From the IMG/VR virus record IMGVR_UViG_3300021389_000111, positions 1-28,963 of that record: a DNA stretch of 28,963 nt; one strand, 5' to 3'. Of the stretch, positions 23,490-26,851 are shown piece after piece; the first letter of the stretch is position 1, and each line of letters starts with the position of its first letter. The notes below the pieces were generated by a model. The model did no database searches. It had not been told where the DNA came from and saw only the letters and a program-made list of their open reading frames with translations. The DNA comes from a virus. The translations under genes were made by a program, and so were the position numbers.

Positions 23490-23714
23490 TTATTTTAAGT
23501 TAGTTAGTAATTTATTGTAATATTCTATCATTTCTTTTATTCTAATATCACTAAATTTTGTGATTTCTCTGCTTTTTTGTTGTAATGCTTCAGCAGTTCC
23601 TTTTCCATAAGCATCTTCTAAATACATTCCAAATTTAAATTGTTCACCATATTTGTAAACATTACAGCTACCGACATTGACTTTGCACATTAGTCTCATC
23701 CCACCTTGTCGCAT
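23490..23714 (-). CDS. NinG-like, C-terminal ORF
   Basis: A 74-aa open frame. Only residues from about 16 on (SCNVYKYGEQFKFGMYLEDAYGKGTAEALQQKS...) resemble NinG; the first 15 (MRQGGMRLMCKVNVG) are an out-of-frame reading of the DNA that encodes ATRWDETNVQSQC in the other frame. Independent start at ATG 23714 or 23690 is possible but unlikely to give a working protein. Confidence 0.5.
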   Translation of the reverse strand: MRQGGMRLMCKVNVGSCNVYKYGEQFKFGMYLEDAYGKGTAEALQQKSREITKFSDIRIKEMIEYYNKLLTNLK

Positions 23715-23889
23715 AATGCTTTCTACTTATAAAATGTCCAGCTTGCATCTCTCCACCTTTCCAAAAATCTTCTTTACCACAAGTTACACATTTTGTAACT
23801 CCATTTACTGCAAATCTTCTTCTTATATATTGACTAAAAACATTATCAAGTTTTTTAATTAAATTTTTTCTTGATGGTTTTTTAGGCAT
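23668..23889 (-). CDS. NinG-like, N-terminal ORF
   Basis: A 73-aa ORF carrying the zinc-type motif CVTC (about 34-37), AGHF and RKHYATRWDETN, and ending in QCR before TAG. It alone lacks the last Cys pair (QC..CN) and the C-terminal helices. ATG 23889 overlaps the stop of the 49-aa gene as TAATG. Confidence 0.6.
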   Translation of the reverse strand: MPKKPSRKNLIKKLDNVFSQYIRRRFAVNGVTKCVTCGKEDFWKGGEMQAGHFISRKHYATRWDETNVQSQCR

Positions 23890-24235: not shown

Positions 24236-24643
24236 CTACTTTCTGGTTTTTTCGTAAGACCTTCCACCAAAATAAGCACCGACTATTAAAGACAATAGTC
24301 CAGTAATGTTTTCTAAAGAATAATCTAAATACCAACCCACAACATAAGCAACTGAAAAGAACATTAATGTAAGTGGTCTTATATTTTTAGATAGTTTATT
24401 ATCAGAATTTAAATCTGCTTCCCATCGTTTAGTTACCTCTTGCATCTCTATCATATCCATTTCTAGTAGTTTTAAAGCCTTTTCTTTGTCTTCTTGTGGT
24501 AATGACTCATCTTTGTCTATAAGTCCTTTAACGATACCTAAAACGCCATTAGAAGGTAATGCATCTCCTAGTGTATTTACAATACCAGAACCATTGTTAA
24601 GTAAAAACTTACCTACTTTTGTATCTTTAAACTTCTTCGCCAT
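24236..24643 (-). CDS. Holin, 3TM-superfamily type
   Basis: A 135-aa protein. A helical cytoplasmic start (KVGKFLLNNGSGIVNTLGDALPSNG) leads to acidic DMIEMQEVTKRWEADLNSDNKLSKNIRPLTLMF near 60-92, the typical lead-in of the phage 3TM holin family (R W E A D ... S K N I R P L). Two membrane spans follow (LTLMFFSVAYVVGWYLDY, ITGLLSLIVGAYF), ending GGRSYEKTRK. It should permeabilise the inner membrane and let the endolysin out. The start overlaps the 50-aa gene by 17 bases and sits last in the lysis block. Confidence 0.78.
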   Translation of the reverse strand: MAKKFKDTKVGKFLLNNGSGIVNTLGDALPSNGVLGIVKGLIDKDESLPQEDKEKALKLLEMDMIEMQEVTKRWEADLNSDNKLSKNIRPLTLMFFSVAYVVGWYLDYSLENITGLLSLIVGAYFGGRSYEKTRK

Positions 24644-24779
24644 AACCCCATTTAAAATGTAAACAAATAAATATTAAGTAGATATTTAATTCTTCGTTAT
24701 CTTCTTCATCTAATGCTGGATAGTATTCAAAGCCTAACATTAAACCTCTTTCTAAAATAAAACTAAATCCAAATATCAT
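24627..24779 (-). CDS. Small conserved lysis-block protein
   Basis: A 50-aa ORF, MIFGFSFILERGLMLGFEYYPALDEEDNEELNIYL..., then IFICLHFKWGYGEEV. It has two hydrophobic segments around an acidic centre. I recall the YPALDEE...NIYL.FICLHFKW pattern from other Bacteroidota phages, always near holin and endolysin genes. It overlaps the holin gene by 17 bases and starts 1 base from the endolysin stop. It may modulate the holin. No enzymatic motif is seen. Confidence 0.6.
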   Translation of the reverse strand: MIFGFSFILERGLMLGFEYYPALDEEDNEELNIYLIFICLHFKWGYGEEV

Positions 24780-24780
24780 A

Positions 24781-25164
24781 TTATAATTTTTTTTGATAAT
24801 CCCATCTAGCTCTTTCTCCTCTTATATCGTAGTGAACAAAAGAATCATATAAACCTAAACCACCTTGTAACATATCTCCATTACTTATAAGTCTTTCTAT
24901 TGTGTTGTAGACTTCTAAAGGTGTCATTCCTTTTACAGCAATATCACTTGCTCTACCCATTATATGTTGGCTAGATTTTACCCCACCGATAGAAGCATTG
25001 TATTCTTCAGACCTATATGCACTATTAATATGTATTGGTTTTCCTAACTCATCTCTTAATACTTGTAATTGATTAGCAACCTTAACCATATTATGATATA
25101 TGTTTATAGGCATTTCACTTCCATCATTGCAATCAAACTCCTCTTTAGTAAAATTCTTTGTCAT
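24781..25164 (-). CDS. Endolysin, D-Ala-D-Ala-type peptidase (M15A)
   Basis: A 127-aa peptidase cutting cell-wall peptides. Residues 47-75 hold SAYRSEEYNASIGGVKSSQHIMGRASDI, with zinc ligands H67 and D74; the third ligand and catalytic partner lie in LYDSFVHYDIRG (H111, D113). This is the S-x-H-x-x-G-x-A-x-D layout of peptidase M15_3. No separate cell-wall-binding domain and no signal peptide are present, so export depends on the holin. The N-terminus (NFTKEEFDCNDGSEMP) is typical. It lies 3 bases after the beta-barrel-like gene. Confidence 0.88.
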   Translation of the reverse strand: MTKNFTKEEFDCNDGSEMPINIYHNMVKVANQLQVLRDELGKPIHINSAYRSEEYNASIGGVKSSQHIMGRASDIAVKGMTPLEVYNTIERLISNGDMLQGGLGLYDSFVHYDIRGERARWDYQKKL

Positions 25165-25167
25165 TTA

Positions 25168-26235
25168 TTATATTTTAAAGTTAATACCAGCTTTAATTAC
25201 TTTTATTTCTCTATCCCAATACCTTTGCATAGTTATCTCGCTGAATAGTCCTAGTTTTTTATTTAGTCTTACACCAAATACTCCTCCATATTTATAATCT
25301 ATCCAGTTGTCTTTACCTATAAAGTTTCCATAAGAATATCTTTCATCTCCTTTTTGTAGTTTGTGATGAGGTAATATATTTCCATAAGCGTGTACCCAGA
25401 AGTTCTTTCTGTAATGATAGAAGTCTAAACCTATAACACTTGATAAATCTGCAAAACTACCTATCATTGCTAGTTGCTCTTTATTGTATTGATTTACTAA
25501 CTGTCCGTATATGTTGTTTCTATAATCTAAATCAGAATTGCTTATTAATTCTCCTTGTGCATTATACCAAAAGTAATCATAACCAGTTTCTCCAGTCATT
25601 AAGTTTTCATAACTATATAAAGCATCTGTATGATTAAAGTAATCGTAAGATAAGTTCCACCAAGCATTTTCTTCTAAATACTTTTGTATTGGGTTTACAC
25701 CATAGGCTTTCTCGTATGTTCTATAAACACCACCAACGCTTAAAGATAGTTTCTTACCTATTGGTATTCTAACTCTTAAATCTAATGATTTGTAGTCTAT
25801 ATCTACTAATTCGTTTTTATTAGCTTCTGCTTTAGCAATCCACCATTTAGATAAGTAACGAACAAATAGTTGTTTATTCTTAAACTCCATTGATTGTTGT
25901 CTACCTTCTTGGTATTCAAATAAGTATTCTAAACCTTTTACGTTTCCTATGTTAGAGTTTAAAGAATTGTTTTGTTCTTCTCCATCATAGAACCTTTCTT
26001 TATCTTCATACCCAAAGTGAGCTAGTTTTCTAAAGCCAAATGTTTTTATTTCATCTGCTGGATTTCTTTTTGTTGTTTCTATTAACTCGCTGTTTTGTGT
26101 AACGTAAAACATCTTATCTCCTTGAATAGAATTGCTTTGACTATATGCTCCATATAAAGTAGCATATTTAAAAACATCCTTAAATATATCTGCTTGAGCG
26201 TTTATTGTAAATAGTAATAATAATAAATATTTCAT
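25168..26235 (-). CDS. Secreted beta-barrel-like (outer membrane) protein
   Basis: A 355-aa protein. MKYLLLLLFTINAQADIF is a signal peptide. The mature part is rich in Tyr, Trp, Asn and Asp, with repeated amphipathic strands (KQLFVRYLSKWWIAKAEAN, LSLSVGGVYRTYEKAYG, YGGVFGVRLNKKLGLFSEITMQRY) and ends with an aromatic-type strand (VIKAGINFKI), as outer-membrane barrels do. It lies between the endolysin and the thioredoxin-like gene. An exported phage protein this size is unusual. It may assist release from the outer membrane or block superinfection. The barrel is inferred from the pattern only. Confidence 0.6.
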   Translation of the reverse strand: MKYLLLLLFTINAQADIFKDVFKYATLYGAYSQSNSIQGDKMFYVTQNSELIETTKRNPADEIKTFGFRKLAHFGYEDKERFYDGEEQNNSLNSNIGNVKGLEYLFEYQEGRQQSMEFKNKQLFVRYLSKWWIAKAEANKNELVDIDYKSLDLRVRIPIGKKLSLSVGGVYRTYEKAYGVNPIQKYLEENAWWNLSYDYFNHTDALYSYENLMTGETGYDYFWYNAQGELISNSDLDYRNNIYGQLVNQYNKEQLAMIGSFADLSSVIGLDFYHYRKNFWVHAYGNILPHHKLQKGDERYSYGNFIGKDNWIDYKYGGVFGVRLNKKLGLFSEITMQRYWDREIKVIKAGINFKI

Positions 26236-26238
26236 AGC

Positions 26239-26592
26239 TTAAAATTTATCTTGTAATAGTTCGTCTATATGTTCTTGAATTCTTTCTGTAGTGCTTTCTG
26301 GTAGTTTCATAGATAAACCAGCTTCTATTTTTTCTATTAGCTCTCCGTTGTTATAAAGGCAAATAGTAGGTAAGTAAATTATCTTTTCGTTTGAGTGTAT
26401 CTTTTTATCTTTGCTTAAATAAAAAGTATGGATATTATGTTCCTTAAATGGTTTTAAGGAGAAGTCATCATTCTTTATAAACTCTGCTGTATATAATACA
26501 ACACTAATGTCATCTTTATAAGATTGACTATGAGTTACAGAAAATACAAATAGGGCAATCGCTACACATAATTTATTTTTTAGATATTTCAT
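26239..26592 (-). CDS. Secreted thioredoxin-like protein
   Basis: A 117-aa protein with a signal peptide (MKYLKNKLCVAIALFVFSVTHSQS). The mature part looks like a small thioredoxin fold without a CxxC: DISVVLYTAEFIKNDDFSLKPF near 28-49, HTFYLSKDKKI near 55-65, then LPTICLYNNGELIEKIEAG near 74-92 (the cis-Pro strand) and a final helix. Without the active cysteines it would not exchange disulfides; it may be a periplasmic binding partner. It overlaps the 92-aa gene by 20 bases and is followed by the beta-barrel-like gene after 3 bases. Confidence 0.62.
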   Translation of the reverse strand: MKYLKNKLCVAIALFVFSVTHSQSYKDDISVVLYTAEFIKNDDFSLKPFKEHNIHTFYLSKDKKIHSNEKIIYLPTICLYNNGELIEKIEAGLSMKLPESTTERIQEHIDELLQDKF

Positions 26593-26851
26593 ATAATCTC
26601 ATTTCTAATAGTTTCAAAGTTTCCTTCATCTCTTGCACATCTTCTTGAGTTGTAATTATAGCTTCTCTAATAATTTGGTCTTTATACTGAAACTCTGTAG
26701 AGGTTACCTCTGGCTCTGGAAGTGTCATAGCTTTTGCAATGTCAGCTTGTAAAACGAAGTACATTGAGGATAAACTAATAGCAAATCCTACAATCATTCC
26801 TATTGTTTTTAAATCTAAAGTTACTTTTGTATCTTCTCCAATCTGTGTCAT
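26573..26851 (-). CDS. Membrane protein with coiled coil (spanin- or holin-like)
   Basis: A 92-aa protein, MTQIGEDTKVTLDLKTIG, then one membrane span (MIVGFAISLSSMYFVLQA, about 19-36). A periplasmic part follows, ending in a coiled coil (EDVQEMKETLKLLEMRLYEISKK). One span plus a coiled coil is the layout of inner-membrane spanins, and it is placed with secreted proteins in the lysis block. It overlaps the upstream gene by 4 bases (ATGA), the downstream one by 20. The spanin role is a guess from topology; it could also be a second holin. Confidence 0.55.
   Translation of the reverse strand: MTQIGEDTKVTLDLKTIGMIVGFAISLSSMYFVLQADIAKAMTLPEPEVTSTEFQYKDQIIREAIITTQEDVQEMKETLKLLEMRLYEISKK

Follow-up and report, generated by a model that had tools for sequence, protein, structure and literature searches.

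A three-gene envelope module usually found beside the endolysin of uncultured phages, a candidate for outer-membrane disruption without a lipoprotein spanin

Introduction

How phages without recognisable spanins open the outer membrane of their hosts is an open question. Kongari et al. 2018 (PMC6139136) counted 91 genomes without recognisable spanins among 677, listed among such phages two that infect the flavobacterium Croceibacter, and raised the possibility, without an example, that an outer-membrane protein acts as an o-spanin. The sequence studied here, called the window, is a single virus record (28,963 bases). In it, an initial annotation had noticed two signal-peptide proteins next to an endolysin and had suggested that they disrupt the outer membrane in place of spanins, or alter the host surface. 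What might such proteins do beside a lysin, and do they stand alone? We describe a gene module, A-T-B, which is a concrete and abundant candidate for the opening of the outer membrane.

Results

All the window genes treated here are on the minus strand. The two secreted open reading frames (ORFs) singled out by the initial annotation are gene B (25168-26235; 355 aa), with a signal peptide and a predicted 12-stranded outer-membrane beta-barrel, and gene T (26239-26592; 117 aa), with a signal peptide and, according to profiles, a thioredoxin-fold domain without CxxC. Both evolve as genes, their dN/dS against near relatives being well below 1 (0.06-0.15 for B, 0.07-0.17 for T). That description of the lysis cassette gave T and B at the right coordinates and had left a third envelope gene unlisted: gene A (26573-26851; 92 aa; dN/dS 0.04-0.07) lies upstream of T, overlaps it by 20 bp in the window, and encodes one transmembrane (TM) segment (about residues 16-35) followed by a C-terminal coiled coil, which makes it a candidate i-spanin-like component of the inner membrane. 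A Peptidase M15 endolysin (24781-25164; 127 aa; PF08291, E 1.4e-20; PHROG endolysin, E 1.1e-35) lies 3 bp downstream of B, and a small ORF of 50 aa (24627-24779) separates it from a holin-like protein of 135 aa (24236-24643; phrog_3427 holin, E 8.6e-14), whose homologue in Nonlabens phage P12024S carries a holin annotation.

The same Nonlabens phage is the nearest isolate for the endolysin and the holin-like gene of the window, while for the terminase the nearest isolates are Flavobacterium phages (54% identity). The signal peptides found here frequently end in A-x-Q, which we take to be the Bacteroidota style, and the host of the window phage is likely flavobacterial. Two smaller features were seen in the comparison with locus L171: it carries a 47-aa look-alike of the 50-aa ORF at the same position, and its NinG-like gene is a single ORF of 123 aa, whereas that of the window (23490-23889) consists of two overlapping ORFs (73 and 74 aa), a split due to a frameshift or to an assembly error.

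Profiles of the A, T and B families were each run on all fetched IMG/VR loci. These loci had the highest scores in each scan, and beyond them there could be remote relatives that lack the partners. Among them, and judging completeness only where at least 3 kb was available on either side of the anchor gene, the three genes occurred together without exception: at 84 of 84 loci with B as anchor, 83 of 83 with A and 82 of 82 with T in a first set of 149 dereplicated loci, and at 148/148, 152/152 and 153/153 by anchor when distant relatives were included (244 dereplicated loci). A, T and B are a strict module. The commonest gene orders are B-A-T (102 loci) and A-T-B (86 loci), and A and T overlap or lie at most 10 bp apart in 236 of 237 cases. 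Extra copies of A or T exist at some loci; in L101 (11160-11785), as in L024, L104, L109 and L147, a diverged second A-T pair gives the arrangement A-T-B-A'-T'. Apparent exceptions with A-T or T without B, L140 and L171 among them, were set aside, being too near contig ends to be judged.

Relatives of B are encoded by at least 584 stretches of IMG/VR, in records as long as 213 kb. In contrast, tblastn against 50,697 isolate phage records found no B (three variants), T or A (one B-A-T-type query each), and the module may have escaped notice for that reason; a full-text search of related work, which covered few subscription papers, turned up no account of a module like this. The scan of 84,980 GTDB genomes with B gave one match, on contig DQLC01000007.1 (L110). 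This metagenome-assembled genome is labelled Alphaproteobacteria, but the contig has its genes arranged as in the B-A-T phages and is probably viral and wrongly binned.

Linkage to endolysins was counted at the loci with enough sequence (186, of which 78 are A-T-B and 108 B-A-T). At 139 of these 186 loci (70/78 for A-T-B and 69/108 for B-A-T) the module is followed within 2 kb by an M15 endolysin, and at a few others the endolysin slot is taken by an unrelated hydrolase, namely Amidase_2 in L057 and L339, and PG_binding_1 with Amidase_2 in L323. That the module stays while the type of lysin changes argues for a link with lysis over a merely inherited gene order. A distribution scattered with regard to lysis genes, which had been named as a result that would speak against a lysis role, is not what was seen, even if roughly one locus in four is without M15 within 2 kb. 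The placement in a lysis cassette is found at most loci and not in all large phages, many of which have no lysin adjoining the module; in L169, some 18 kb separate the M15 gene from it.

A family of 203-209 aa without Pfam match and with an H...S-x-G-C pattern was observed at 9 loci (L086:7490-8119 and L262:6209-6820 among them), either occupying the endolysin slot or lying immediately after it. Judged by eye, these proteins and the DUF5675 proteins of L301 and L353 are possible lysins. Neither M15, nor an amidase of the L057 type, nor a 203-aa candidate lies within 2 kb at 37 loci (31 B-A-T and 6 A-T-B), to which L323, L339, L301 and L353 belong. In Nonlabens phages with a related endolysin and holin, neither T nor B is seen upstream of that endolysin.

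The AlphaFold2 model of B has 12 strands (mean pLDDT 77, pTM 0.69). A C-terminal end resembling the beta-signal (G-x-x-phi-x-phi) is present in 214 of 216 unique homologues, and a signal-peptide-like N-terminus in 117 of 119, as counted with a pattern written for this analysis. B thus has the signal peptide, the modelled fold and the C-terminal signal of an outer-membrane barrel, as the initial annotation had supposed, and is predicted to be one. When the model was compared with solved structures (VIA-align 2), 12-stranded outer-membrane barrels were nearest (Z 12-14): the barrel domains of EstA and NalP, KdgM, NanC, Tsx, LpxR and OMPLA. The Foldseek TM-scores against PDB barrels are low (0.20-0.36) and are taken only as a hint of fold class. 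B matches these barrels in predicted strand number and differs from them in being phage-encoded, with fixed partners, a large conserved insertion and no sequence relation; it has no match in PHROGs or Pfam, a sequence profile against the PDB was also empty, and the best viral match is the unnamed protein A0A516LKJ4 (E 2.5e-26, 28% identity). The insertion, between strands 7 and 8, comprises 86 residues (175-260) and is helical, confidently modelled and conserved, while strand 2 is followed by a long turn for which the model is poor. If, as in most such barrels, the N-terminus is periplasmic, L1, L4 (the 86 residues) and L5 would be the long loops on the outside.

Since the sugar-acid porins KdgM and NanC are among the closest solved barrels (Z about 14), B could be a porin-like channel with an auxiliary metabolic function, which changes uptake or permeability during infection. 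B is however unrelated in sequence to any porin of Pfam or the PDB, the single GTDB match reveals no host source, and a channel would leave A, T and the linkage to lysins unexplained; we regard this reading as very improbable. The main rival to a lysis role is superinfection exclusion or surface alteration, where B would mask or block a receptor or change the cell surface, T being its partner in the periplasm and A an anchor in the inner membrane. Phage-encoded outer-membrane proteins serving such purposes are known, and a barrel of outer-membrane type, with long loops that presumably face outward, in a module that is not always beside a lysin, would suit this role. Its usual place beside unrelated families of endolysins and its obligatory inner-membrane partner A are, in contrast, unexpected for a receptor blocker, and we regard this explanation as rather unlikely.

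Structure prediction, successful for B, gave no confident model of T (AlphaFold2 on a shallow alignment of ten close rows, pLDDT 35), and the thioredoxin fold claimed for T therefore leans on profiles. Pfam Thioredoxin was matched by 16 of 27 close homologues (best E 2.4e-4), and the T protein of L256 exceeds the gathering score (26.1 vs 23.5). A first alignment against the PDB was marginal (E 0.001), whereas a wider profile, which adds the T proteins of larger phages, matched many thioredoxins (E about 2e-8). The proline (cis-Pro) motif is kept in 232 of 237 homologues (P75 in the window), as in thioredoxins. T departs from thioredoxins by its signal peptide, by a conserved C-terminal Phe or Tyr (227 of 237; Phe in the window) and by the CxxC motif, which is present in 0 of 237; FNxxNCF or FSAEF is found at the position of WCGPC. 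T is thus predicted to have a thioredoxin fold and, as CxxC is missing throughout, probably acts in binding or as an adaptor rather than as an oxidoreductase. The initial description of a cysteine-free thioredoxin-like protein holds for the fold, but mature T keeps one cysteine, C78, and only the CxxC is missing. Against the soluble folds that had been considered as a counter-case, B is a predicted barrel and T a predicted thioredoxin fold that is exported.

The features of an i-spanin, an N-terminal TM segment and a coiled coil, are seen in A: among 232 unique homologues, 231 have the TM segment near the N-terminus, and the tail has a coiled-coil-like periodicity of 3.5 residues (median z 2.1). 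The coiled coil would lie in the periplasm, an orientation that the charge bias for an N-in topology backs weakly (151/232). At about 55 residues, the part that would lie in the periplasm is short if it must span this compartment unaided. The Rz-like PHROG 739 matched A weakly in two records, yet the same profile matches 14 of 14 control genomes.

Sequence distances were compared in 70 A-T-B phages. Those of T and B are correlated (r 0.71) and stay so when the endolysin is taken into account (partial r 0.69), whereas those of B and the endolysin are not once T is given (partial r 0.03). Adjacency alone was considered as the cause and rejected, since B lies about as near to the endolysin as to T and yet shows no correlation with it given T. 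The correlated divergence is compatible with T and B interacting, and together with the missing correlation between B and the endolysin it points to an autonomous unit.

These distances bear on a further reading, in which the module would sense the state of the envelope or of the infection and time lysis via the holin or endolysin, without breaking the outer membrane, A being perhaps a holin or antiholin. In its favour, the 'holin' PHROG 1296 gives matches to 14 of 20 A proteins (best E 6.9e-5), and a separate holin-like gene downstream of the endolysin leaves A room for a second role. A CsgG-type outer-membrane pore of phage Melnitz has also been proposed, as a proposal only, to control lysis (PMC9004378); like B, it is a phage-encoded outer-membrane protein, but it is a curli-type pore with clear bacterial homologues, and its fold and partners differ from those of B (PMC9004378). 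The PHROG 1296 match, however, covers mainly the TM segment where the alignment was read (residues 15-41 in the window, 16-51 in L068), and many unrelated coiled-coil families match A too. A as a plain holin was considered, but these matches are short and unspecific; given also that T and B appear to diverge as a unit of their own, a purely regulatory module seems unlikely.

If the module acts in lysis, is a conventional spanin also present? A strict six-frame lipobox scan, which had no positive control, gave no candidate for the window or for any of ten relatives (32-37 kb). In the same records, relaxed rules, which pick up three lipoprotein-like genes at other loci, yielded scattered candidates only and no conserved lipobox gene; these records may be incomplete, and a spanin could lie elsewhere. 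The signals of T and B resemble those of signal peptidase I and have no lipobox, so that the lipoprotein feature of an o-spanin is absent and the module falls outside the two-component spanin family as defined. The pattern of unimolecular spanins such as T1 gp11 (an N-terminal lipobox with a C-terminal TM segment) is likewise absent from the module, and none is conserved in the records scanned; what would be shared with these proteins is the proposed role in outer-membrane disruption.

The resemblance to two-component spanins such as lambda Rz/Rz1 lies in the architecture: an inner-membrane protein with a TM segment and coiled coil, an exported partner at the outer membrane, overlapping genes, and a place beside the endolysin and holin-like genes. 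The differences are that a predicted barrel takes the place of the lipoprotein at the outer membrane, that a third, obligatory protein of predicted thioredoxin fold is added, and that no specific sequence relation was found. Moreover, most two-component spanins have cysteines for intermolecular disulfides, whereas most A proteins have none (213/232; cysteine is present in 19/232). By analogy, the A-T-B module may work like a two-component spanin.

Discussion

Our results are consistent with A-T-B being a trans-envelope lysis module that does the job of spanins with a barrel replacing the lipoprotein, a reading to which we give a probability of a little under one half. A would sit in the inner membrane, its coiled coil reaching into the periplasm, B would be inserted in the outer membrane, and the exported T, having lost its redox site, would bridge A to the barrel. 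Cutting of the peptidoglycan by the endolysin would then free the A-T-B bridge, which would join or destabilise both membranes, as Rz/Rz1 do, except that a barrel would stand where they have the o-spanin lipoprotein. The membrane topology of A, the physical complex, its timing and the disruption of the outer membrane are what we infer from the genes. The earlier suggestion that the spanins are replaced thus keeps its conditional form, and can now draw on a three-gene module, on its linkage to unrelated endolysins and on the lack of a conserved lipoprotein in the records scanned.

Several observations count against this lysis bridge. The 86-residue insertion of B, outward-facing in the usual topology, is not explained by a membrane-bridging role. 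The 37 loci without a nearby lysin of the types considered, the distant M15 gene of L169 and the Nonlabens phages without T or B also weigh against it, as do the short periplasmic part of A, its weak N-in charge bias and its few cysteines.

It is also possible, though we would say so with somewhat less assurance than for the lysis module itself, that A and B joined by a redox-dead T represent an undescribed class of lysis machine, breaking the outer membrane without a lipoprotein spanin, probably in Bacteroidota hosts, and widespread in uncultured phages. T would moreover be a case of a thioredoxin-fold protein without redox site as an obligatory partner in a membrane module.

Finally, a small gene matching PHROG 26616 ('lipoprotein') was seen in or near the module (L005:7032-7319; L228:5694-6080), with profile matches at 52 dereplicated loci (27 B-A-T and 25 A-T-B); it may be an optional fourth part.
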